Origin: a virus
Virus record (IMG/VR): IMGVR_UViG_3300029892_000129
Coordinates: 1 to 29,936 of that record
Direction: 5' to 3' (one strand)
Length of the DNA stretch: 29,936 nucleotides
The notes beneath the pieces were generated by a model. The model was not told the DNA's origin, made no database searches, and was given only the letters and a program-made list of their open reading frames with translations. A program made the position numbers and the translations under genes. Positions 19,666 to 29,936 of the stretch are shown piece after piece; position 1 is the stretch's first letter, and the number at the start of each line of letters is the position of its first letter.

Positions 19666-20057
19666 CAGCGATACACCACCAGGTTGATCTCGGTGGAGTC
19701 GGCAAACGACGTCGCCATCGTGGCGCAGGCGACATCAACGTATTCGGTGGTTTTCTGGTCGGCGGTGGCACGCGCGATGGCGATGCGTTGCGTGCCGTTG
19801 TCGGTGCTACTGCGGGCCAGCGCAATCCAGGCGTAGTTCGTGTCCGGCATCGGCTGGGTGAAATGGACGCGATAGCGACCGGTCGCCAGGCGTTCCACGC
19901 TCATCACGTTGCGAGTGCTGTGCATCACCATCTGGCTATTGACGTAGCCGAAGCTCACCCACACGCGTGCGAGACCCGGATGCGAGCCATCGATCTTGTT
20001 TTTAACTTCGATGCCAATGCGCGCGGCGAGGGATGCGATACGGTCGGAAAGCGACAT
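19665..20057 (-). CDS. Fibre-like protein with receptor-type beta domain, in head module
   Basis: A 130-residue protein with an N-terminal helix, MSLSDRIASLAARIGIEV, followed by a beta-rich domain (ARVWVSFGYVNS, then GRYRVHFTQPMPDTNYAWIA). This strand pattern, AxVWVxF ... YxVxFxxxMPDxNY, is widespread in phage fibre and spike tips. It lies between the terminase and gpW genes, where tail fibre genes are not expected, so it may be a head fibre or connector appendage. Its N-terminal helix resembles that of the neighbouring gene, which suggests a shared anchoring site. The function is inferred. Confidence 0.75.
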   Translation of the reverse strand: MSLSDRIASLAARIGIEVKNKIDGSHPGLARVWVSFGYVNSQMVMHSTRNVMSVERLATGRYRVHFTQPMPDTNYAWIALARSSTDNGTQRIAIARATADQKTTEYVDVACATMATSFADSTEINLVVYR

Positions 20058-20548
20058 CAGACCAGTGCTCCTTCGAACACCGCCACGAAGTCAGTGTCGG
20101 CGTCCCCGATAGCGCTGAGTGCAATCGCTCCGATGTTCTCGCGCGCCTGCTGTTGCTCGATCACTGTCAGCGTCTGCGCAGCATCGAAGCGCACGCGGTT
20201 GTTGACGGCGGCAAGCAGCGCATCGAGGCCGCTGGTTCCGTCCTGGAGTAACTGCTGGATCTCGACCAAGGTGTCATAGGCAGCATCGGCACCACCAAGA
20301 ATCTCGGCCTTGAGGGTGTCCAGCAGCGTGACGATCTTCGACGATGAGTAGGTCGTGGTCAGCGCCACGTTGGCGTCGTCGATGCCGGTACCGCTGAGAA
20401 CGGCGGACTGGAGCTCGTTGATGGCCGCCACCAGACTCGACTTGTCGGTGGTTGTCAGGCTCGCCAGCGTGCCGGTCTTGCTGTTGAGCGTGTTGAACTC
20501 CTGTGCGATGCGAATCACCAGGCTCTCGATACGGGTCTGCAAACTCAT
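20057..20548 (-). CDS. Fibre-like coiled-coil protein, in head module
   Basis: A 163-residue protein starting MSLQTRIESLVIRIAQEF. This ATG at 20548 is preceded by GAAGGA with a suitable spacer; an upstream start at 20578 overlaps the terminase end and is less likely. The sequence contains the motif TTTDKSSLVAAINELQSAV (about residues 28-46), common in fibre and virion structural proteins, followed by helical heptad-like repeats (TLVEIQQLLQDG, LDALLAAVNNRV). It should form a trimeric stalk. With the next gene it makes a two-gene fibre unit between terminase and gpW. Confidence 0.75.
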   Translation of the reverse strand: MSLQTRIESLVIRIAQEFNTLNSKTGTLASLTTTDKSSLVAAINELQSAVLSGTGIDDANVALTTTYSSSKIVTLLDTLKAEILGGADAAYDTLVEIQQLLQDGTSGLDALLAAVNNRVRFDAAQTLTVIEQQQARENIGAIALSAIGDADTDFVAVFEGALV

Positions 20549-20565
20549 GGGATGTCCTTCTTCGT

Positions 20566-22527
20566 TCAGGAGAGCCAACGGCTGCGCACCAACTGGCGTG
20601 CGCGGCGACCTGGCCCAGAAGCAGCGAGGCCACCGCGTTGGGTGGCCTCGTCAGTCGTTGTCGTAGTGGTGGGGTCGGGTGGATCGTCCATCCCCAGCTG
20701 TCGCTCCAGCTCGCGCCAATGACGTTCGTCGAAGCGATCCAGTCCCGCCGCCGAAGCAGCGGCGCGTGCATAGACGTAGCAGTCCAGTGCTTCGTTGCGC
20801 TCTCGCATCTTTTGCCACTCCCGGATGGGAAAGCCATTCCGGTCGCGGCGGGTGATGAGCTGTTCTGCGCAGAGCTGCTGGATGAACTCAGCATCTACGT
20901 GGGGCAGATGGATGAATCCGGCTGGATAGATCGCGGTGATGCCGTCTTCGGCCACATCTGCCGATTTGCGCAGGTTGTTGTAGAGCTCGAGCTTGGCAAT
21001 GCCGACCGCGACCGAGAACACCTTGATGCCTCGACGCAGCTTCTTGCCACCCTTCGAGATATCCACGGCGGTGGGCGTCCCGATCAGAGCTGCACCGCGC
21101 GCGACGCCTTTGACCGCCATGACACGCGGGTCCCGACTGGCCCGCACGAAGGAATAGGCCTCTTGGGTGGCAAACCCCGTGTCCACGGCAAACCGTGCCA
21201 GCGGCAGTGCCGCGCCGGATGCATGCGTCCAGTTCTCCGCGAGCAGATCCGCCAGTTGTTTCCAAACCGCGTCGCGGGCCGTATCGCCCATCAACACGCG
21301 ATGCTCGACCAGCCAGGATTCCTTGCCGCGCCCGAAGGCCCAAATCGAAGCCTCGATGCGGTCCTTCTGTACATCGGCGCCACCCACCAGGAGCAGCCCA
21401 CCGGGAGGGATCGATCCGACCGGGTAGTCCTCGCGTCGCTCGACAAGACGCTGCCAATCCGGTGCTTCACCTTCCTCGACCCAGGTCTCACCCAGTTCCG
21501 TGTTCTTGAACGTCTTGATGGCCGCCGCCGATCCTGACTCCTTGCTCACGGCCAGTTCCCACGCGACGGCGATTTCGCGCCAACTGCGCCAGCCCACCGG
21601 GCTGTAGAGCGACGACAAATGGAAGCCTGCGGTCTTGGCTCCGTTCTCTGGGGCCAGTGCGCGCCACTCGCCGTGTTCCAACATCCAGGTCTTGTGATGC
21701 TCCGAAATCGGTGCGTCGCAGGACTCGCAGACATAGGCGGCGCTCTCCGGCTGGCCTTTCTCCCATCGCAATTGTTCGAAGCGCAGCCACTGGCGATGCG
21801 AGCAATGCGGGCATGGCACAAAGTAGCGGCGCTGATCGGATGACTCATATTCGCGTTCGATGGCGCTCGCCCCAGAGATCGTCGGCGTCGAGACGATGAA
21901 GATCTTGCGCCGGGCAAAGGTGCGCGTGCGTGCCTCGGCCAGTGAAATCGCATCGCCTTCGCCCTCGACGTCCAGAGGATAGCCATCCACCTCATCGAGG
22001 AACAGGTATCGGACAGGCATCGACCTCAGTCCGACCGCGCTGTTGGCACCGGTCATGACCAGGACGCCACCCCGGAACTCCTTCGCGAGAATGGTGTTGC
22101 CGGAGTCCCGGCTCCTGGCCGGGGCAATCAACTCGGCCAGAACACCCGACTCCTCGATCAGGGGGTCGATCCGCTGCTTGGAGTTGCGCTTGGCCATCTC
22201 CACTGTCGGCCAGACCGCCATCATTGGACCTGGCGCGTGGTGGATCACGTAGCCGATCCAGTTCGAGCCCATCTCGGTCGCGCCAAGCTGAGCGGCCTTC
22301 ATGAACACCACGCGCTCGACCGGCGAGGTCGGAGACAGGCAGTCCATGATCGCCTTCAGGTACGGCGTGCGACTGGTGCGCCAGCGTCCCGGCTCGGCGG
22401 ACGCCTTGCTGGAAAGCATCCGGTGCCGATCCGACCATTCGGACACGGTCAGCAATGGGTCCGGCGTCAGTCCTTCGCGCCAAGCGCGCTCGATTTCCGC
22501 CGCGCCTTCGTAGTCCACGTCTAGCAT
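20566..22527 (-). CDS. Terminase large subunit, lambda gpA family
   Basis: A 653-residue packaging motor and nuclease. The ATPase part shows a Walker A-like KAAQLGATE (77-85) and Walker B LFLDEVD (175-181). A zinc-ribbon follows with Cys239, Cys242, Cys267 and Cys270. The nuclease part carries acidic motifs in VGGADVQKDR, FAVDTGF and NEALDCYVYARA. The C-terminus is variable, with a run of Thr. It cuts concatemeric DNA at cos or pac sites and pumps it into the head. The ATG overlaps the small subunit stop by one base. Confidence 0.95.
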   Translation of the reverse strand: MLDVDYEGAAEIERAWREGLTPDPLLTVSEWSDRHRMLSSKASAEPGRWRTSRTPYLKAIMDCLSPTSPVERVVFMKAAQLGATEMGSNWIGYVIHHAPGPMMAVWPTVEMAKRNSKQRIDPLIEESGVLAELIAPARSRDSGNTILAKEFRGGVLVMTGANSAVGLRSMPVRYLFLDEVDGYPLDVEGEGDAISLAEARTRTFARRKIFIVSTPTISGASAIEREYESSDQRRYFVPCPHCSHRQWLRFEQLRWEKGQPESAAYVCESCDAPISEHHKTWMLEHGEWRALAPENGAKTAGFHLSSLYSPVGWRSWREIAVAWELAVSKESGSAAAIKTFKNTELGETWVEEGEAPDWQRLVERREDYPVGSIPPGGLLLVGGADVQKDRIEASIWAFGRGKESWLVEHRVLMGDTARDAVWKQLADLLAENWTHASGAALPLARFAVDTGFATQEAYSFVRASRDPRVMAVKGVARGAALIGTPTAVDISKGGKKLRRGIKVFSVAVGIAKLELYNNLRKSADVAEDGITAIYPAGFIHLPHVDAEFIQQLCAEQLITRRDRNGFPIREWQKMRERNEALDCYVYARAAASAAGLDRFDERHWRELERQLGMDDPPDPTTTTTTDEATQRGGLAASGPGRRARQLVRSRWLS

Positions 22528-23063
22528 CAGTCCACTCGAGGGCGCAGTTCGCCCAGCTCTTGCAGGTGCTCGCGCACTGCGGCCTCCAGTGCCACGTGCA
22601 TGGCGTGCGGATCGACATCGAGCCTGGCAGCCATCTGCGCCGAAATGCGCGCGGGCCAGTTAAGCCACGCATCGCGCTCGGAGCGCGCCAGCTTGAACAC
22701 ATGCGCAATGGCCTGTGGCCGATCGACCAGCTCTCCTTTTAGGCGGGCCAGTCGCACCTTGTTGGTTTGCGCCTTGACCACTTCGTTGACCGTGCGTGCC
22801 TGCAGCAACGAAGTGCCACCAGTAGGCAAGGCAGCAGGCCCGTCGCTCGACGGTGTTCCGGTCTCCGGCACGACCACTTTGGCCGCCTTGGCACGAGTGC
22901 CTGCCTTGGGCACATCCGAGTTGCGCGCCCACTCGCGATCCGCCCGGTCGGCATCGATGGTTCCGTCAGGTTCCGGCGTGATGCGCCCGGCTCGAATCGC
23001 CTTGTGAACAGCGGTGTCGGTCACGCCGCGGTGCCGGGCGTATGCGCGTATCGAAATGCCCAT
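22527..23063 (-). CDS. Terminase small subunit / DNA-recognition protein, Nu1-like
   Basis: A 178-residue protein with an N-terminal helix-turn-helix (SIRAYARHRGVTDTAVHKAI, residues 3-22) followed by GRI and an acidic linker, as in Nu1-type small terminase subunits that recognise the packaging site. The C-terminal half is helical and charged and should contact the large subunit. The start is uncertain: ATG at 23063 fits the family N-terminus but its AAGGAG is 15 bases away; a TTG at 23087 would add eight residues but lies on the edge of that same AAGGAG. It stands at the head of the late minus-strand operon. Confidence 0.82.
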   Translation of the reverse strand: MGISIRAYARHRGVTDTAVHKAIRAGRITPEPDGTIDADRADREWARNSDVPKAGTRAKAAKVVVPETGTPSSDGPAALPTGGTSLLQARTVNEVVKAQTNKVRLARLKGELVDRPQAIAHVFKLARSERDAWLNWPARISAQMAARLDVDPHAMHVALEAAVREHLQELGELRPRVD

Positions 23064-23103
23064 GGTGAGAACCGGCGGCTCCTTCAATCATTTGATCGTC
23101 ATT

Positions 23104-23181
23104 CCTCTGGATTGAGCTTGGCTTCCATCTGGAACAGCGCGTTCATGGCATCACCATCAACGACGCCGTCAGGAGACGCAC
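23104..23181 (+). promoter_or_regulatory. Repeated leader element, copy 1
   Basis: This leader precedes the 62-residue gene. GCTTGGCTTC lies at 23116-23125, six variable bases follow, then GAACAGCGCGTT starts at 23132, exactly 50 bases before the ATG. GGCTTC and GAACAGC can form a short stem with two bulged bases around the variable loop. AGGAG seven bases before the ATG is the ribosome binding site. Two further copies precede the next two genes. Confidence 0.65.
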
Positions 23182-23370
23182 ATGACCAAGCAAACCGACA
23201 AAGCCCTGGAAAACCTGCTGCAGCAAATCGCGCTGGACCACCTGTTCATCGACACCCTGGAGACCCGCAACAGCGATCGCCTGGACTTCCACGAGGTCAG
23301 CGTCTGGGGCGTCAAGAGCGCCCTGATCGCCGCCTATGAGGCGGGCCAGCAAGCCGCCAAACAGGACTGA
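23182..23370 (+). CDS. Small DUF6900-like protein
   Basis: A 62-residue protein starting MTKQTDKALENLLQQIALDH and containing RLDFHEVSVWGVKSALIAAY, a pattern I associate with DUF6900. Proteins of this kind occur in prophages and mobile elements; no biochemical role is known to me. It is small, acidic and helical and could bind another protein. The gene runs on the plus strand, opposite to the phage operons, and is the first of three cassette-like genes each with the same leader. AGGAG precedes the ATG by seven bases. Confidence 0.85.
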   Translation: MTKQTDKALENLLQQIALDHLFIDTLETRNSDRLDFHEVSVWGVKSALIAAYEAGQQAAKQD

Positions 23371-23453
23371 GAAAGAAGCAGAAGACGCTTGGCTTCACTC
23401 CCGAACAGCGCGTTCATCAGGTCACGCCATCAACCACTCCAGAGGAGCTGCAC
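23371..23453 (+). promoter_or_regulatory. Repeated leader element, copy 2
   Basis: The second copy has GCTTGGCTTC at 23387-23396 and GAACAGCGCGTT starting at 23403, 51 bases before the next ATG. The loop bases between the two blocks differ from those in copy 1 although the spacing is the same. The 18 bases before the core (beginning GAGAAAGAAGCAG) also match copy 3. Near the start codon, CTCC and GGAG flank AGA and could form a small hairpin over the ribosome binding site. Confidence 0.65.
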
Positions 23454-23975
23454 ATGAACACCACCCAACTGACCCCGGCCCAGCACGCGATCCTGGCCTA
23501 CGCCCTCGAACATACCGGCGGCAAGATCGACTGGTTCCCCGACAACATCAAAGGCGGCGCACGCAAGAAGGTGCTCGATGGCCTGTTCAACCGCGCCCTA
23601 ATCACCACCGACGGCACCGACTGGTTTGTCGCTGCCGAGGGCTACGATGCGATGGGTCGCGCTCGACCCGTACTGGCGCCCCTGGATACCGATCCCGAGA
23701 TCGAGGCCGCCGTGTCTGCAGCCGAGGCCGAGTGGGCCAAGGACGCGACCACTGAGCAGGCCAAGCCGCGCACCCGCGAGAACAGCAAGCAGGCGGAAGT
23801 CATCCGGATGCTGCAACGCCCCGAGGGCGCCACGATTGCCCAGATCTGCATGGCCACCGGCTGGCAGGCGCACACGGTGCGCGGCACCTTTGCCGGAGCC
23901 TTCAAGAAGAAGCTCGGCCTGGCCATCGTCTCGGACAAGGCCCCGGGTGGTGAGCGGATCTATCGGATTGCCTGA
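23454..23975 (+). CDS. DUF3489-like protein
   Basis: A 173-residue protein. The N-terminal 60 residues (LTPAQHAILAYALEHTGGKI, then KKVLDGLFNRALIT) look like a small helical winged-helix unit. After an acidic linker (about residues 75-105), the C-terminal 65 residues, RENSKQAEVIRMLQRPEGAT to GERIYRIA, resemble the DUF3489 domain, itself a winged-helix-like unit. Two such units suggest DNA binding and perhaps regulation of the cassette or of host genes; this is inference. The ribosome binding site is GAGGAG. It is the second of the three leader-bearing plus-strand genes. Confidence 0.85.
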   Translation: MNTTQLTPAQHAILAYALEHTGGKIDWFPDNIKGGARKKVLDGLFNRALITTDGTDWFVAAEGYDAMGRARPVLAPLDTDPEIEAAVSAAEAEWAKDATTEQAKPRTRENSKQAEVIRMLQRPEGATIAQICMATGWQAHTVRGTFAGAFKKKLGLAIVSDKAPGGERIYRIA

Positions 23976-24071
23976 TCAGAAAGATCGAGAAAGAGGCCAA
24001 GACACGCTTGGCTTCTCAATCGAACAGCGCGTTACTACGGGTGTCGCAACGATCACCCCAAGGAGCCAACG
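23976..24071 (+). promoter_or_regulatory. Repeated leader element, copy 3
   Basis: The third copy has GCTTGGCTTC at 24006-24015 and GAACAGCGCGTT-like sequence from 24022, 50 bases before the ATG (GTTA instead of GTTC after the core). The six loop bases again differ. AAGGAG is the ribosome binding site. The upstream stretch GAGAAAGAGGCCAAGAC matches the same part of copy 2. Confidence 0.65.
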
Positions 24072-24440
24072 ATGAACGCCACCAACCAAATCCCTGCCAC
24101 CCAGAACGAAGAATGGGGCTTCTGGGGCACGATGAACGAGCATGCCAGCGTCGGATGGCCCCTGGCGATGGCTGCCATCTCGGACGCCACCAGCCAACCC
24201 CTCGAATCGGTTCGAGTCTTCCTTGACAGCCGCCACGGGCGCCACTTTGCCGACGACGTCGAGAACGGGCTTTACGAGGGCAAGGGCCTGGCGGACGCGA
24301 TCAACGCCGCCACCCAACGCTGGATGGGCTGGACGATTGGCCGCCAGACCAGCAAGCAGTTCGGCATCCCGCGCGGCCTGCCTTACCTGACGGGCTTCGT
24401 GATTCACTGCGAGATCGTCGAGGAATCGCTGGTCGCCTGA
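24072..24440 (+). CDS. Unknown 122-residue cassette protein
   Basis: A 122-residue protein starting MNATNQIPATQNEEWGFWGT. It is rich in Trp, with WGFWGT near the N-terminus, VRVFLDSRHGRHFADDVENG in the middle (about residues 47-66) and TQRWMGWTIGRQTSKQFGIP (about 85-104). The conserved-looking core and good codon use indicate a real gene. I do not recognise a named domain. It is soluble, with no membrane segment, and is preceded by the third leader copy. Its 3' end overlaps the end of the convergent methyltransferase gene by 37 bases. Confidence 0.82.
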   Translation: MNATNQIPATQNEEWGFWGTMNEHASVGWPLAMAAISDATSQPLESVRVFLDSRHGRHFADDVENGLYEGKGLADAINAATQRWMGWTIGRQTSKQFGIPRGLPYLTGFVIHCEIVEESLVA

Positions 24441-25672
24441 TCGAACAACACGCCATCCGACTCTCGGGTGGCCTGCTTGCCTGTCCAGTCCTGCCAGCGG
24501 CGCACGATTACATCCACGTACTTCGGATCGAGTTCGATCAGCCGCGCCAACCGCCCTGACTTCTCGGCGGCGATCAGCGTCGTGCCGGAACCGCCAAAGG
24601 GGTCGAGCACCACGTTGCCGGGTCGGCTCGAATTGCGGATCGCGCGCTCAACCAGCTCCACCGGCTTCATGGTCGGGTGCAGGTCGTTCTTCTGCGGCTT
24701 CTTGATGTGCCAGACGTCGCCCTGATCGCGGTCGCCACACCAGTGACGTTGCGCGCCTTCGGGCCAGCCGTAGAGGATCGGCTCATATTGGCGCTGGTAG
24801 TCGGCACGACCCAGCGTAAAGGTGTTCTTGGCCCAGATGATGAACGTCGACCACTTGCCACCGGCAGCACGGAATGCGGCCTGCAGCACGTCGAGTTCAC
24901 TGGAGGACATCGCCACGTAGATCCCGCCCCGGCAGTGCGCAATGGTTGGCGTCAAAGCCGCCAGCAGGAAGTCGTAAAAGCCGTCACCGAGGTTGTCGTT
25001 CAGGATCGCGCGATCCTTGCCGCGCATCTTGTCCTTGGCGCTGTTGGCGTAGTTCACGTTGTACGGTGGGTCGGTGAAGACCATGTCCACCGGATCGCCG
25101 TTGAGAACCCGGTCGTAGCTTTCGGCCACGGTGGAGTCACCGCACAGCAGGCGGTGACCGCCGAGTAGCCAAACGTCACCCGGGCGTGAAATTGGCCTCT
25201 CACTGATCTCGGGCACAGCATCGTCGTCGGTTTCGCCCTCAGCATCTGGCTCGTCGCCAGCCATCAACTCGGCCAACGCGTCGGCATCGAAGCCGGTGAG
25301 CGACAGGTCAAAGTTGTCGTCCTGCAGGGCAGCGATCTCGATGCGCAGCATCGCGTCGTCCCACCCGGCGTTTTCAGCGATGCGGTTGTCCGCGATGACC
25401 AGTGCTCGGCGCTGGGTCGGCGTCAGGTGATCGAGCACGACCACCGGCACCACTTCCAATCCGAGTTTCTGTGCAGCGGCCAGCCGCCCGTGCCCGGCGA
25501 CGATGACGCCATCGCTGCCTGCCAGGATCGGGTTGGTGAAGCCGAATTCGGCAATCGACGCAGCGATCTGCGCCACCTGATCGTCTGAATGGGTGCGTGC
25601 GTTGCGGGCATAGGGCAGCAGCTTGGCTGTCGGCCATTGCTCGATCTTGTCGGCAAACCAGGAGGCGGTCAT
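24404..25672 (-). CDS. ParB-domain DNA methyltransferase with DPPY motif, probably adenine-N6
   Basis: A 422-residue fusion. Residues 10-110 form a ParB/Srx-like nuclease domain (NPILAGSDGVIVAGHGRLAA, with the GHGR motif). After an acidic linker, residues 165-405 form a DNA methyltransferase: catalytic DPPY at 201-204 and the SAM-binding DPFGGSGTT at 357-365. Motif order (catalytic before SAM) is that of the beta class, and DPPY usually marks N6-adenine methylation. The ATG at 25672 overlaps the stop of its paralogue (ATGA). No restriction endonuclease gene is seen beside it, so it likely protects phage DNA against host restriction or modulates packaging or gene expression. Confidence 0.9.
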   Translation of the reverse strand: MTASWFADKIEQWPTAKLLPYARNARTHSDDQVAQIAASIAEFGFTNPILAGSDGVIVAGHGRLAAAQKLGLEVVPVVVLDHLTPTQRRALVIADNRIAENAGWDDAMLRIEIAALQDDNFDLSLTGFDADALAELMAGDEPDAEGETDDDAVPEISERPISRPGDVWLLGGHRLLCGDSTVAESYDRVLNGDPVDMVFTDPPYNVNYANSAKDKMRGKDRAILNDNLGDGFYDFLLAALTPTIAHCRGGIYVAMSSSELDVLQAAFRAAGGKWSTFIIWAKNTFTLGRADYQRQYEPILYGWPEGAQRHWCGDRDQGDVWHIKKPQKNDLHPTMKPVELVERAIRNSSRPGNVVLDPFGGSGTTLIAAEKSGRLARLIELDPKYVDVIVRRWQDWTGKQATRESDGVLFDQATSDSSTISQ

Positions 25673-27081
25673 TGCGCGGCCCCCATGGTGGCCAGACGTT
25701 CGTTGACCACCTCGTCGAAGGACTGGACAGTGGCCAACAGCGTGACGGGCACACCGGGGTGGTTCTGCTGGAAGCGCTTGATGGCGACGTCCACATACTC
25801 CGGCGCGATCTCGACGCTGCGACACACACGACCGGTGCGCTGTGCAGCCAGCATCGTGGTCCCGCTGCCGCCGAAGGGTTCGAACACGATGTCACCGGCC
25901 TCGGTGTAGGCCTCGATCACGAACTCTGGCAGCGCCACCGGGAATACGGCTGGGTGATCGATGTCCTGCCCGATCTTGCCCTTGTGGCGCATCACCCGGA
26001 TCACCGAGTCAGGAATCCGGGTGTCCTGTGTCGGTTGGCCCTTGTGCGTCCAGCCGCCGACCTCGCCATCTTTGCCGCGCATTGCCGTGGATGAGCCATC
26101 GGCACGCAGATGTGATTCCTGGCCGGCGTGCTTGCAGGGCACGATCTTGTTCGGCTTGCGGCTCTGGCGGTTGAAGTGGAAAACGAACTCGAAGCTCGGC
26201 GCGAAGCGGCCCGCCCAGTCGCCCGGCATCCCCGGCCCCTGATCCCAGACGTACCACGCGAAGCGCCGCCAGCCTTGTGTACGCATCCAGCCGAGCCACG
26301 CGTCCCAGTACGGGATGACTTCGTTGTCACGGTGGATCAGCCCGAGGTTGACCAGCACCTGTCCGTCGTCCGCCATTGGCACCTTGGCGAACACGCCGCG
26401 CATCAGGCCATCCCAGTCGGCGATGCCGTCGGAGGTGTAGTCGCGCTGATTGCCGTAGGGCGGCGAGGTGAAGCACAGCCGTGCCAAGTCACCCTGCATC
26501 AGAGCGGCGACCACGGTCGGATCGGTGGCGTCGCCACAGATCATGCGGTGCGGCCCGATGGCCCAGACATCGCCGGTGCGGGACACTGGCACCATGGGTG
26601 CTTCCGGCACGTCGTCGGCCGCGTCCGGTGCATTGGCGTCATCGTCCTGGTCGGCATCACCGGTGACGCCGTCGTCGGCGAGCAATGCCTCGATCTCAGT
26701 CTCATCGAAGCCGGTCAGTGCAAGGTCGTACCCAGCGTCGGACAGCTCGGCCAATTCCAGCGCCAGCAGTTCCTCGTTCCAGCCCGCATCGAGCGCCAGC
26801 CGATTGTCGGAGATGACGTAGGCGCGTTTCTGTGACGGTGACAGATGAGCAAGTTCGATCACCGGGACTTCATCGAGTCCCAGCTTGCGCGCGGCGGCCA
26901 TGCGGCCGTGACCGGCGATGATGCCGTTGTCACCATCCACCAGGACCGGATTCGTCCAGCCGTACTCCACGATGCTGGCGGCGATCTTGGCCACCTGCTC
27001 GTCGGTGTGCGTGCGCGGATTGCGGGCATAGGGGATCAGCGCCTCGACCTTGCGGTACTCGACGTTGAGCGTGTTCAGAAT
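25669..27081 (-). CDS. ParB-domain DNA methyltransferase with SPPY motif, probably cytosine-N4
   Basis: A paralogue of the next gene with the same design: ParB-like domain (NPVLVDGDNGIIAGHGRMAA), acidic linker with many Asp, and methyltransferase domain with SPPY at 206-209 and EPFGGSGTT at 401-409 (numbering from the start at 27081). SPPY is typical of cytosine-N4 enzymes, though assignment by motif is not absolute. The start is unclear. No ATG, GTG or TTG lies between the hairpin and the conserved region; ATT at 27081 or CTG at 27078 follow GAGGA at four and seven bases. A TTG at 27159 would require translation through the terminator-like hairpin. The C-terminal 40 residues are a helical extension. 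Confidence 0.88.
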   Translation of the reverse strand: MLNTLNVEYRKVEALIPYARNPRTHTDEQVAKIAASIVEYGWTNPVLVDGDNGIIAGHGRMAAARKLGLDEVPVIELAHLSPSQKRAYVISDNRLALDAGWNEELLALELAELSDAGYDLALTGFDETEIEALLADDGVTGDADQDDDANAPDAADDVPEAPMVPVSRTGDVWAIGPHRMICGDATDPTVVAALMQGDLARLCFTSPPYGNQRDYTSDGIADWDGLMRGVFAKVPMADDGQVLVNLGLIHRDNEVIPYWDAWLGWMRTQGWRRFAWYVWDQGPGMPGDWAGRFAPSFEFVFHFNRQSRKPNKIVPCKHAGQESHLRADGSSTAMRGKDGEVGGWTHKGQPTQDTRIPDSVIRVMRHKGKIGQDIDHPAVFPVALPEFVIEAYTEAGDIVFEPFGGSGTTMLAAQRTGRVCRSVEIAPEYVDVAIKRFQQNHPGVPVTLLATVQSFDEVVNERLATMGAAQ

Positions 27082-27093
27082 CAGTTCCTCGAA

Positions 27094-27128
27094 AAAAGGA
27101 AACCCGCCGACGGGAAACCGTGGGCGGG
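27094..27128 (-). terminator. Terminator-like hairpin before the methyltransferase operon
   Basis: CCCGCC (27103-27108) pairs with GGCGGG (27123-27128), and inside it ACGG (27110-27113) pairs with CCGT (27118-27121) around four bases. On the minus strand the stem is followed by TTTCC and six more T, a full rho-independent terminator. As it lies upstream of the methyltransferase genes and downstream of the replication-side genes, it would end that transcript or act as an attenuator. Confidence 0.75.
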
Positions 27129-27154
27129 CTCGTGATACGTGCTGGATGGGCGGG

Positions 27155-27189
27155 TGCAAACTGCAAACCCTGCAAACCTAGGTTTGCAG
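27155..27189. repeat. GCAAAC half-site cluster with 20-base palindrome
   Basis: TGCAAAC occurs three times in direct orientation at 27155-27161, 27162-27168 and 27171-27177, then once inverted. The last two form the perfect palindrome CTGCAAACCTAGGTTTGCAG at 27170-27189. The array lies upstream of the minus-strand methyltransferase operon. The pattern, a dyad operator plus tandem half-sites, is typical of a repressor or activator binding region, inferred from structure alone. Confidence 0.7.
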
Positions 27190-27196
27190 TCTGACG

Positions 27197-27433
27197 CTAA
27201 AAAAGCGCCGCGCTCGCGCCCCCCGCATTGCTTGGTGGCCAGGAAGGACCCGTGGCAGCAGGTCGTGGCCATCGCGAGCCGGAAACGACGAAGGCCACAG
27301 ACTGTGCTGTGGCCTTCAGACGTACTTCGCTCGCGAGATTAGCCGTAATACTAGCGAAAAAACCTCCAGATGTTGCACGCCGAAAAGGCGTCAAAACCCG
27401 CAGCGTTCCGCAAGATTCCGAGTGGCTTTGCAA
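27197..27433 (-). CDS. Possible 78-residue small protein (doubtful)
   Basis: This frame starts with TTG at 27433, ten bases after the stop of the DUF6362-like gene, with a weak GAGAAC upstream. The product is Ser- and Ala-rich, with the segments FFASITANLASEVRLKATAQ and SVAFVVSGSRWPRPAATGPS. Similar sequences turn up as hypothetical proteins in other prophages, but that may reflect conservation of the DNA or RNA structure, since the frame runs across a perfect hairpin. It ends in the T-run of a possible terminator. Confidence 0.25.
   Translation of the reverse strand: MQSHSESCGTLRVLTPFRRATSGGFFASITANLASEVRLKATAQSVAFVVSGSRWPRPAATGPSWPPSNAGGASAALF
27290..27317. other. Perfect 11-base-pair hairpin
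   Basis: GAAGGCCACAG at 27290-27300 pairs exactly with CTGTGGCCTTC at 27307-27317, leaving a six-base loop (ACTGTG). No T-run follows on either strand, so it does not look like a simple intrinsic terminator. It may be a protein-binding site, an RNA stability element or part of a small RNA. Confidence 0.6.
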
Positions 27434-27443
27434 CGGTTCTCAA

Positions 27444-27860
27444 CTACACGCAACGTCCGCGCGAATTGGCGACCGCGGCATGTCTCCTCGCGGCTTGCAG
27501 CTGCTCGACCACGATCGCCAGTGCCGCCTGCCAACGACGCCAGGCAGTGGTCCGGTCACAGGCGAAGCGGCAACAGACTTCTTTCCACGGGTACCGCTGC
27601 GCCCGCATCCAGACCAGGTGTCGCTGTTCCTCTTCCAGCCACTGGACCCACCGCATGGTCTCCAGCATCCGGTCGATGGCCGCAGGGTCGGGAGGAAAGC
27701 GGTAGACCGGCGGCTCAGCGCCGAGGTTTTCCCATGGCATGCGTTTGATCGCCGGCCAGCAGTTGAAGTACCCCTGCACGCGGACCGGAGGAAGGCGGTG
27801 GGCGGTTCGTGCGGCCTCGATGAACCGGTCGGCCACGGTCTCGATCGTCCACTCAGCCAT
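27444..27860 (-). CDS. DUF6362-like protein with helix-turn-helix
   Basis: A 138-residue protein starting MAEWTIETVADRFIEAARTA. It resembles DUF6362: conserved N-terminal helix, a GYFNCWPAIKRMPWENL segment (about residues 30-46), then a C-terminal helix-turn-helix of sigma-like type (WKEVCCRFACDRTTAWRRWQ, about residues 92-111). Phage proteins of this kind may act as late-gene or replication regulators; that is inference. Its ATG overlaps the end of the preceding gene by eight bases. Confidence 0.82.
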   Translation of the reverse strand: MAEWTIETVADRFIEAARTAHRLPPVRVQGYFNCWPAIKRMPWENLGAEPPVYRFPPDPAAIDRMLETMRWVQWLEEEQRHLVWMRAQRYPWKEVCCRFACDRTTAWRRWQAALAIVVEQLQAARRHAAVANSRGRCV

Positions 27861-28065
27861 GTCGACGCTCCTTCGCCCCGTACAGCCGATCGCCGATCCG
27901 GCGCAGCAGTTCGCGTTCGACCCAGTCGAGTCGCGCGTCGTCGGGCGAGATCACGAGGATCTGCTGGTCGCGCCAGCCCTCACGCTTGATCTGCTCCGGA
28001 TCGGGGCGCGGATCGGGGTGCAGTCGAGCCAGGGCACAGCGGTAGGCGGGAGTCGGAACCTTCAT
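27853..28065 (-). CDS. Small phage protein of unknown function
   Basis: A 70-residue protein starting MKVPTPAYRCALARLHPDPR. The ATG at 28065 is preceded by AGGAGG seven bases upstream, a strong ribosome binding site; an upstream start at 28146 lies inside the RuvC-like gene. The sequence GWRDQQILVISPDDARLDWV followed by ERELLRRIGDRLYG has good coding character. I do not recognise a domain. It is positioned between the resolvase and the DUF6362-like gene, in the same operon. Confidence 0.75.
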   Translation of the reverse strand: MKVPTPAYRCALARLHPDPRPDPEQIKREGWRDQQILVISPDDARLDWVERELLRRIGDRLYGAKERRHG

Positions 28066-28066
28066 C

Positions 28067-28528
28067 TCACACCTCCTGTGTCTCGACGGCCCAGTGCAGG
28101 AGTGCAATGGCATCGGCTTCGTTGTCGTCAGCCGGTGCGTGGCCACGCAACCGGGCGGCGCTGATCATCTGATCCTTGTTCGCGTTGCCCTTGCCGGTGG
28201 CGTGCTTCTTGATCGTGCCTACCGGAACGCCTTGGTACGGGATCTGGTGGTGCTCGCACCATGCGGTGAGGTGGGCCATGAACCCGCCGTAGGCGTGAGC
28301 TGCATCGACCCCGGCGTGGCGGCGCACCTCCTCGAAGTACACGGCGTCGATGCCGTCGCAGGACTGCTTGATCTCGGTGAGCCAGCGTTTGAATCGCAGG
28401 TAGCGCATGCCGCCACCCTCGAAGCGTTGCGGCTTGAAGGATTCCGATCCGCTGGTCACTGCGCCATCGCGGTCGCGCAGCGCCCAGCCTGTCTGGGTGC
28501 CGAGATCCAGTGCCAGGATCGAGGGCAT
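28067..28528 (-). CDS. RuvC-like Holliday junction resolvase
   Basis: A 153-residue RNase H-fold nuclease that cleaves branched DNA during phage replication and before packaging. Catalytic residues are visible: Asp8 in LALDLGTQTGWAL, Glu66 in VYFEEV, and Asp135/Asp139 in DDNEADAIALL; KGNANKDQM is also family-typical. The start at 28528 fits the family N-terminus but has no good ribosome binding site. The frame stays open upstream to an ATG at 28846, which has GGAGG six bases before it and overlaps the preceding stop (ATGA). A 259-residue product with a 106-residue, repeat-derived extension is therefore possible. Confidence 0.87.
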   Translation of the reverse strand: MPSILALDLGTQTGWALRDRDGAVTSGSESFKPQRFEGGGMRYLRFKRWLTEIKQSCDGIDAVYFEEVRRHAGVDAAHAYGGFMAHLTAWCEHHQIPYQGVPVGTIKKHATGKGNANKDQMISAARLRGHAPADDNEADAIALLHWAVETQEV

Positions 28529-28571
28529 GGATGGCCGCCGATGATCTGAGCCCGGGTGGCCGGCAAGCCCT

Positions 28572-28613
28572 CTACGTAGGGTGGAGGGACCCTCTGGTCC
28601 CTCTCCTACGTAG
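28572..28613. other. Long two-part hairpin
   Basis: CTACGTAGG (28572-28580) pairs with CCTACGTAG (28605-28613), and after a small internal loop AGGGACC (28585-28591) pairs with GGTCCCT (28596-28602) around CTCT. Each outer arm itself contains the palindrome TACGTA. There is no T-run. It lies just upstream of the RuvC-like start on the minus strand and may be a binding site or an RNA structure controlling translation of that gene. Confidence 0.7.
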
Positions 28614-28630
28614 TAGGAGGGGGAGTTTTC

Positions 28631-28825
28631 GCCAACTGGAGAACGGGAGAAATTCCAGCAACCACGCGGGTTTGCGCCAGTTGGCAAGTTGGCAGCGTTA
28701 CCAACTGCCAACTGCGGGTCATTTCCCGCATTACCCTGATTTACCTGGACTTTCAGTTGGCAGGGGTTTGCCAACTGCGGGAAGTTGGCAAGGAAATGGG
28801 TGCAGTTGGCAACGGCGCTGCCAAC
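28631..28825. repeat. Cluster of GTTGGC/GCCAAC half-sites
   Basis: Within about 195 bases GTTGGC appears at 28680, 28688, 28756, 28784 and 28805, and its complement GCCAAC at 28631, 28707, 28770 and 28820; a variant ACCAAC lies at 28700. Most are extended to CAGTTGGCA or TGCCAACTG. The array is next to a RepA-like replication ATPase, so it may be an origin with initiator-binding repeats or an operator region. It contains no independent gene that I can support, apart from the possible RuvC extension. Confidence 0.7.
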
Positions 28826-28842
28826 TGCCGATTGGGCAATGT

Positions 28843-29936
28843 TCATGAGGCCTCCGGGTCGTTCAGTTCGTCGTGGTAGACCCACACCTCGGGGTTCTCG
28901 ACAGGCATCGAGGCGCCGGAATGCGGGCACTTGTAGTGGGTCGGGAGCACCGTGTACTCGCGCATCGGCAACTCGCCGGTGGCCGTGTCGACTTCGCCCG
29001 CTGGCATGCGCAGCACCATGCCTTCGACGCAGAGATAGCCGAACTTGGTGCGGCCGCTTGACGGCAGACCGTAGTCCGCAGCGTTGCGGAAATATTTGAT
29101 GTAGCCCTGCGTCGAGAGCGCGGAGAGGCGCTCGCGGATGGTGCGCTCGCCGCCCAGCCCCGCCTTGCCCTCGAAGCTTTCTGCAAACTGGTTGGCGGTG
29201 TAGCAGCGCCCCTGGGCCGCCTCGTCGAACAGGATCTGCAGGATGGCGTCGCGCTTGCGGCGGCGCTCGGCATCCAAGCGCTCGCCGTAGTCCTTCATCA
29301 CCAGCCGCTCGTTGGCATCGACCTCGCGCCACTCGCCGTTGATCTTGTCGACATGCCTTTGCGGGATACCTGCGCCGTTGCGCAGCTCAAAGATCAGCTG
29401 GCGGGTCGTTCTGGTCTCGTCGGGCCTGAACAACAACATCCCGGTCGAGTAGTAGCCGCGCAGACTTCCCGCGCCGGCCAGTGCCTGGAACGGGTCCTCC
29501 TCGAACTGCTTCTTGCCGAGCTTCTTGGTGTGGTGGGCGAGGATGACGCCGGCGTCCGGATTCACTGCCTGGCGAATGCGCTCCACCCGCTGGGACAGGA
29601 AGAACAGCATGGCGCCGTTGTCGTTCTCGCCACCGGCGTCGCCGCCATCGAACACGTTGCGGATCGGATCGATGGCGATGATGTCGGGAGGCTCGCCGCC
29701 GAAAGCCTGCGCGATCGCCGGGATCACCTGCGCCAGTCCCGCGTCATCGAGCACCAGCCGCAACTGCGGTGTGGCGACGAAGTTGGCGCGAGCATCCAAA
29801 AGCCGGTGTGATGGCAGGCGCACGTCCTTCACGCGCTCGCGCAGGTAGTGGTACTGGACTTCGGCCTGCAAATAAAACACCCGCAGCGGGCGCGGCGGCG
29901 TCATGGCGAGGAAGGTCGCGCCCGCGGCCATGTGCG
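28843..29936 (-). CDS. RepA-like AAA ATPase, replication protein (5' truncated)
   Basis: The frame runs to the right edge, so the N-terminus with the Walker A motif is outside the window. The visible 364 or so residues include a Walker B-like segment (PPDIIAIDPIRNVFDGG) and GVILAHHTKKLGKKQFEEDP with the conserved His pair, as in RepA/AAA_25 hexameric helicases. LFELRNG-type strands (RQLIFELRNGAGIP) follow, and a C-terminal winged-helix-like region (TANQFAESFEGKAGLGGERT, then IRERLSALSTQGYIKYF) may bind DNA. It probably unwinds DNA or loads the helicase at the phage origin. The gene ends in the ATGA overlap that begins the frame leading into RuvC. Confidence 0.82.
   Translation of the reverse strand, partial: HMAAGATFLAMTPPRPLRVFYLQAEVQYHYLRERVKDVRLPSHRLLDARANFVATPQLRLVLDDAGLAQVIPAIAQAFGGEPPDIIAIDPIRNVFDGGDAGGENDNGAMLFFLSQRVERIRQAVNPDAGVILAHHTKKLGKKQFEEDPFQALAGAGSLRGYYSTGMLLFRPDETRTTRQLIFELRNGAGIPQRHVDKINGEWREVDANERLVMKDYGERLDAERRRKRDAILQILFDEAAQGRCYTANQFAESFEGKAGLGGERTIRERLSALSTQGYIKYFRNAADYGLPSSGRTKFGYLCVEGMVLRMPAGEVDTATGELPMREYTVLPTHYKCPHSGASMPVENPEVWVYHDELNDPEAS

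Follow-up and report, generated by a model that had tools for sequence, protein, structure and literature searches.

Several described systems come close to the arrangement reported here. The phage lambda promoters pI, pRE and paQ are weak promoters activated by a single protein, CII, which uses TTGC direct repeats around the −35 region. In the mobile element ICEclc, one 27-bp motif is reported to be common to eight of nine bimodal promoters, and BisDC is proposed as their element-encoded activator (PMC9286271). Phage morons are recognized by a sigma-70 promoter and a rho-independent terminator, according to published criteria (PMC5567305).

The element described below resembles the ICEclc transfer-competence promoters in that one motif runs across the regulon promoters of a mobile element, a likeness of description rather than of compared sequences, but ICEclc is a conjugative element. 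As with lambda CII, one activator would couple the integrase to other lysogeny genes; the element here, in contrast, is built of a −35-like block and a conserved spacer block. Like morons, the genes are small, run against the late genes and each have their own promoter-like element, but by consensus scan they have neither a sigma-70 promoter nor a rho-independent terminator, and their start signal is common to the integrase. The Acidithiobacillus phage AcaML1 (JX507079) is related and carries the element four times, once before a DUF2924-recombinase pair, but its annotation table lists no such feature and some of its cluster genes are in tight operons without an element. The literature that we searched, which covered few subscription papers, contained no description of the element. 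Regulon-wide promoters of mobile elements are already known, and the element would be a further example unless the factor that reads it turns out to be a novel one in kind.

The window, by which we mean the whole stretch of phage DNA that was analysed (29,936 bases), encodes a gpA-type terminase, ParB-type methylases, a RuvC-like resolvase and a primase/helicase gene. Its nearest record among those compared is a prophage region of Pseudomonas indica NBRC 103045, with 95.2% identity across 20,501 of the 29,936 window bases. The named phage genes lie on the minus strand, and three small plus-strand genes occupy the interval from the terminase small subunit to the methylases; this cluster is oriented opposite to the late genes in the window, in AcaML1 and in one further record (G032). 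The pattern GCTTGGCTTC-N6-GAACAGCGCGTT has three exact copies in the window, all on the plus strand (23116–23143, 23387–23414 and 24006–24033), and a mean of 0.00 copies in 100 dinucleotide shuffles of the window with up to three mismatches allowed. An earlier reading of the sequence alone had pointed out these shared blocks before three same-strand genes, the variable loops between them (CATCTG, ACTCCC and TCAATC), and a second block whose start precedes the ATGs (at 23182, 23454 and 24072) by 50, 51 and 50 bases, all of which we find as it described. The three open reading frames (ORFs) are members of real families, DUF6900, DUF3489 and PHROG 8020. The features of the region are as follows.

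22527–23087, minus strand: terminase small subunit, divergent from the cluster (phrog_57, E 2.5e-35)
23116–23146, plus strand: element copy 1, GCTTGGCTTC-CATCTG-GAACAGCGCGTTCAT, exact match; −35-like TTGGCT at 23118–23123, −10-like GTTCAT at 23141–23146
23153, plus strand: putative +1 of copy 1 (A), placed from the element architecture
23182–23370, plus strand: gene 1, DUF6900 protein of 62 aa (Pfam PF21841, E 4.5e-27; phrog_2555)
23387–23417, plus strand: element copy 2, loop ACTCCC, exact match; −35-like block at 23389–23394, GTTCAT at 23412–23417; begins 16 nt past the gene 1 stop
23424, plus strand: putative +1 of copy 2 (A), placed from the architecture
23454–23975, plus strand: gene 2, DUF3489 protein of 173 aa (Pfam PF11994, E 7e-32)
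23995–24013, no strand assigned: inverted repeat GGCCAAG-ACACG-CTTGGCT, overlapping the left block of copy 3; minus-strand terminator-like site at 24012–23996
24006–24036, plus strand: element copy 3, loop TCAATC, right end GTTACT, exact match; −35-like block at 24008–24013, −10-like block at 24031–24036
24043, plus strand: putative +1 of copy 3 (G), placed from the element architecture
24072–24440, plus strand: gene 3, mainly helical protein of 122 aa (phrog_8020, E 2.7e-48; AF2 mean pLDDT 86.0)
24404–27159, minus strand: two ParB-like/N6_N4 DNA methylase genes, opposite to the cluster (Pfam PF01555)

The AF2 model of gene 3 gave no fold match with E ≤ 0.001, and PADLOC returned no match for the three window genes. 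By consensus scan there is no plus-strand terminator-like site between the genes, the only one on that strand lying within gene 3; terminator-like sites of the kind seen at 24012–23996 also turn up in shuffled sequence. An upstream inverted repeat, GAAGCCAAG...CTTGGCTTC (at least 8 of 9 matches), accompanies 26 of 180 non-redundant element copies versus 2 of 180 shuffled upstream regions. This repeat is real, yet it belongs to a minority of copies and was rejected as the element itself; it overlaps the left block, and read on the opposite strand it resembles a terminator that would stop antisense transcripts coming from the methylases.

Copies of the element were found well outside the window, in at least 120 stretches by a pattern scan of IMG/VR and in at least 117 by a scan of one genome per species. 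The fetched loci contain at least 351 gene-linked copies, of which at least 180 are non-redundant; this set was drawn from IMG/VR and genome-scan loci, AcaML1, one plasmid locus and the window, and excludes copies without an ORF and ribosome-binding site, scoring below 15, or too close to a contig end. The core is GCTTGGCTT-N11-AGCGCGTTCAT, with almost fixed spacing, in an element of about 30 bases. Over the non-redundant copies the near-constant core reads GCTTGGCTT-N11-AGCGCGTT[C/A][A/C]T, where positions 16–25 and most of the left block lie within the scan patterns and are constant partly by construction, and where the near-invariance of the CAGCGCG block is partly imposed by scans that required GAACAGCGCG. 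GAA at positions 16–18 was asked for by the scans yet falls outside the most constant core (G 82, A 83 and A 92% over the 180 copies).

The spacing inside the element and to the gene is also nearly constant. Among the fetched loci a loop of six gave at least 335 matches and loops of 3–5 or 7–10 gave none (at most two mismatches in 25 positions), although the originating IMG/VR pattern scan had allowed loops of 3–10. A relaxed scan gave at least 396 GCTTGGCTT-AGCGCGTTCAT matches at gap 11 versus one in reversed sequence, and at the remaining twelve gaps in the range 5–17 it gave 59 versus 30 reversed, many of those listed being the same copies in another register. Rare spacing variants exist, namely one loop of five among 281, a gap of 10 instead of 11 (L032) and the shortened copy L405 considered below; these would be tolerable for a promoter, but not for a strict site. 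A co-directional ORF follows 353 of 367 copies (14 have none), and in 228 of those 353 the ATG lies 64–67 bases from the element start. Scored by weight matrix, reversed sequences reach at most 2.0, and the middle half of the copies score 47–56.

The sequence-only reading had explained the blocks as a structured RNA leader with a constant stem. The pairing itself is possible, but over five pairs and not six. In an alignment of 79 rows (A1, a hand-picked diverse part of the 180 copies plus the window copies), 94.7% of the cells of the proposed stem are paired versus 94.2% after shuffling, a value reached by 54 of 500 shuffles, and the covariation score of the stem is reached by 46 of 500. One pair carries double changes (two cells), values that 301 and 109 of 500 shuffles reach. 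The compensatory changes that had been proposed as a check are not clearly above shuffles: stem covariation is in slight excess, within the range of related sequences. A17 is replaced by C in 20 of the 180 copies with its pairing partner unchanged. An alternative GAAC/GTTC hairpin has zero covariation over the 79 rows, and the GAAC-N5-GTTC dyad does not survive in copies that read GTGAAT, GTCAAT or GTTACT while retaining GAAC. The RNAalifold consensus (−1.19 kcal/mol, no compensatory pairs) is not a stable fold, the three window leaders adopt three different folds (z −1.28, 0.20 and −1.42), and an Rfam cmscan of 20000–29936 found nothing above the gathering score, its four weaker matches (E 0.36–4.5) all lying elsewhere. 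A structured RNA was rejected on covariation and folding, and the stem-loop reading is not supported. It had been added that a structural role would be unlikely if the leaders lacked covariation and were confined to recent duplication within one phage lineage: clear covariation is indeed absent, but the element is far wider than one lineage.

Two signatures that lie outside the search patterns connect the element to transcription. Positions 36–38 are pyrimidine (95%), purine (87%) and pyrimidine (95%) in 347 copies found by pattern alone. The corresponding values are 99/87/95% in the 180 non-redundant copies and 100/82/90% when each of 36 downstream families contributes a single copy (19 of the 180 copies, which have no family label, being left out), both sets having been selected with a matrix that spans these positions. 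The purine is missing in some small families (11, 15 and 19). Upstream, A-tracts occur at −4, −15 and −26 from the element, a period of about 11 bp, and their periodicity is 0.072 compared with a maximum of 0.026 in 2000 shifted controls (123 upstream-non-redundant copies). If position 37 is taken as +1, the A-tracts are at −41, −52 and −63, the first T of TTGGCT falls at −35, GTTCAT covers −12 to −7, and a leader of about 29 nt results, the ATG lying some 29 bases past the putative start. RNA polymerase alpha C-terminal domains favour and touch DNA at such A-tract positions.

TTGGCT matches the sigma-70 TTGACA at four of six positions, and the spacer of 17 bp lies within the sigma-70 range of 16–18 bp. 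The −10-like hexamer is a poor one for sigma-70: it has G at −12 and T at both −11 and −7 (99% each), which gives the T that sigma-70 calls for at −7 but not the A at −11. A consensus scan of 22900–24500 found no sigma-70 promoter. A plain sigma-70 promoter was rejected on the T at −11 together with this empty scan. Sigma-54, with the consensus GG-10-GC, was also rejected: ten bases past the GG there is G (82%) and then A (83%), not GC, the GA having been asked for by the scans. RNA polymerase by itself does not account for the CAGCGCG block.

On these sequence grounds, we consider it probable that the element is a DNA-level promoter core plus control site, each occurrence being one copy of the start signal of a prophage regulon. 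It would act as double-stranded DNA, with TTGGCT in the −35 place, GTTCAT in the −10 place and a 17-bp spacer between them, and transcription would begin at the purine seven bases past GTTCAT. The resulting 5' leader, about 29 nt long, would contain little beyond the ribosome-binding site. Because the −10 hexamer is unfit for sigma-70 and CAGCGCG is conserved in the spacer, we infer a dedicated reader, an activator or an alternative sigma factor, of phage or host origin. The asymmetric conserved core, whose parts keep a nearly fixed distance of some two helical turns, and the several copies per prophage would also suit an operator for a repressor or anchor, dispersed over the prophage in the manner of stoperators, with the promoter elsewhere or in the form of a poor sigma-70 site. 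The fixed ATG distance and the pyrimidine–purine–pyrimidine (YRY) signature at one position, however, tie the element to a transcription start, and the consensus scan offers no alternative promoter; we think such an operator quite unlikely.

The promoter interpretation gains from where else the element is found. When 37 element-bearing records were searched whole, many held, among the matches listed, a further element kilobases away from the cluster. Places of this kind, when read, show a DUF2924 gene (L246, E 1.2e-44) with a serine recombinase gene behind it (L247, Resolvase E 7e-38). In element-bearing records, the element is upstream of 65 of 66 assessable DUF2924 genes, the last one having a copy 2 bp shorter. 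Stated more strictly, at least 56 of 67 DUF2924 genes above the cut-off have an upstream element with at most one mismatch, 55 at 85–110 bases before the domain and one at 342, the element places being those among the matches listed and, for AcaML1, from a separate scan. Of the other 11 genes, nine have elements scoring 10.9–44.1 (reversed maximum 2.0), one has the shortened copy and one lies at a contig start. In that shortened copy (L405; G023:C101) the right block is 2 bp short (CAGCGTTCAT), the sole spacing change among the DUF2924 copies, and it is possibly decayed.

Eight DUF2924-recombinase regions of 5 kb each have one element heading the operon and no second one scoring above 8. In AcaML1, gp32 (DUF3489-like) follows close behind an element-led ORF with no element of its own. 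In the eight regions and in AcaML1 the element heads transcription units, not inner cistrons. An unannotated element-led ORF that by eye is DUF6900-like also occurs in AcaML1, at about 22,209 to 21,970 of JX507079 on the minus strand (element at 22,274), opposite the terminase small subunit gp33.

An association with DUF3489 genes had been suggested as a check: 47 of 54 element-bearing records contain DUF3489, and none of 26 element-free genomes does; for DUF2924 above the cut-off the figures are 46 of 54 and 0 of 26. The 54 records are the 37 searched whole plus 17 more exact-match genomes, with G188 and the one-mismatch-only genomes left out; the 26 were hand-picked from the first part of the Burkholderiales list and are mostly the larger ones. 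With this shared membership of cargo genes and integrase operon observed in the records, we infer from sequence a common timing: the two would be switched together, in a regulon spread over a family of prophages, and over certain other mobile elements, whose integration relies on a DUF2924-associated serine recombinase.

These operons bear on a role in RNA that needs no fold. Transcripts might pass through the element, where a protein or small RNA would bind single-stranded bases and control the translation of each cistron. Such unstructured recognition would not require covariation, and it would sit well with the co-directional ORFs at mostly one distance, with elements that begin only 16–30 nt past the preceding stop and with a stem covariation score a little over shuffles. 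No stem is clearly kept by compensation, however, the inner cistrons of the integrase operon lack the element, the phased A-tracts and start-like YRY are unaccounted for, and the consensus scan shows no separate sigma-70 promoter for the cluster. We regard an mRNA leader as unlikely.

The downstream proteins, mostly below 200 aa, form 51 clusters without blastp similarity to each other; 24 clusters have at least two members, and some of the small ones are doubtful ORF calls. The suggestion of a modular expression signal for cassette genes is supported by this range of proteins and the near-constant distance to the ATG. Judged by the record titles of the genome-scan matches listed, the hosts are mostly beta- and gammaproteobacteria. 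In 300 sampled Burkholderiales genomes, 46 have a match with at most one mismatch versus 3 with a match to the reversed pattern; 19 have an exact match, one of which (G188) is doubtful and was treated as chance. Among 136 fetched element loci, with the window itself outside the scanned set, 110 adjoin a terminase, portal, methylase or other gene of the window phage. The element is not confined to one phage.

Some of the cargo is of a different kind. A high-scoring element leads a DUF499 ATPase gene in Caldimonas caldifontis (L252; PADLOC DUF499 match, 1462 bits), and another stands before an ORF judged by eye to be of a similar DUF499 type in Candidatus Nitrospira defluvii (L253), so that defence cargo may come under the same signal. 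A further element-led gene encodes a 96-aa protein of no known function. In a Lysobacterales MAG (L228), a lone minus-strand element (score 46) at about 2405 has no clear gene downstream and, by eye, HTH-like and lolA-like host genes on either side.

One pair of contigs, L018 and L030, differs by a 655-bp stretch holding an element-led gene in place of 45 bp, between flanks that are 92–94% identical. Its right edge lies 21 bp upstream of the CTTGG of the next element, which indicates that gene and signal moved together. This replacement with one edge near an element, and the differing gene sets behind the same element, would be expected of a site at which gene cassettes are moved by recombination and expression is only a secondary effect. 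Yet the element has no conserved dyad, it also heads the integrase operon in nearly all element-bearing records having one, and ordinary homologous recombination between repeats would account for gain and loss. Integron attC sites of the usual type have the core GTTRRRY with inverted repeats; the corresponding core here is mostly GTTCAT or GTTACT, unlike GTTRRRY, and attC was rejected. Overall, a recombination site seems very unlikely.

Two sister classes are related to the promoter-like element. Class B, common in IMG/VR, has AGAGCG in place of AGCGCG; its at least 35 non-redundant copies mostly precede the same protein families, named by eye, with DUF2924-like genes first (15 of 34 with an ORF), and its +1 purine is down to 69%. 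Class C, in alphaproteobacterial-type phages, is GACTTC-N9-CAGAGCGGTC; in 7 of 14 stretches it precedes a DUF2924-like gene by much the same distance, the others being one cut by the locus end and six chance-like; by eye, the start signature is visible in some copies only. Among nine alphaproteobacterial DUF2924 loci from whole genomes, two have a class C element and seven do not. These distributions suggest, tentatively, that the integrase site is older than the cargo sites.

A broader, tentative reading, which we hold possible rather than probable, is that these elements form an undescribed class of start signal (−35-like CTTGGCTT, spacer CAG[C/A]GCG, −10-like G[T/G]TCAT), with a dedicated factor travelling with DUF2924-serine recombinase elements of alpha-, beta- and gammaproteobacteria. 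It would have been first an integrase control site and later have spread by copying to tens of cargo genes, one of them for anti-phage defence, and any captured gene would thereby join the regulon. If this is true, the regulon of these temperate phages and their relatives, a large and little-studied group, is marked by a short signal that can be searched for; the signal shows which small unknown genes act alongside the integrase, and gives a handle on the controlling factor. It would also provide a motif-based route to cargo, such as the DUF499 gene of Caldimonas, that is missed by homology to known phage genes.

No trans factor is common to all element-bearing records, as 3 of the 54 (G018, G025 and G281) are without both DUF3489 and DUF2924. 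DUF3489 is one candidate reader, DUF2924 another, and a host factor a further option. In the AF2 model of DUF3489 (mean pLDDT 81.3, pTM 0.41) the N-terminal part is winged-helix-like, and the C-terminal part also looks like a winged helix from its predicted secondary structure. Foldseek gave no match to this model at E ≤ 0.001, and a DUF3489 profile found nothing among the sequences of solved structures (best E 0.79). VIA-align of residues 1–72 gave Z 9.7 to the C-terminal part of RuvB and about 8 to MarR-type regulators, in a comparison that barely covered the rest of the protein and where Z near 8 is possible by chance. The model thus gives only a hint of DNA binding.

Directly upstream of the −35-like block, some DUF2924 copies (L254, L403, L404, L405 and L409) carry a string like AGAGAAGTT or AGCGAAGTT, and members of the alphaproteobacterial class (L394, L414, L423 and L427) have GGAGACAGTT or GGAGAAAGTT at that place.
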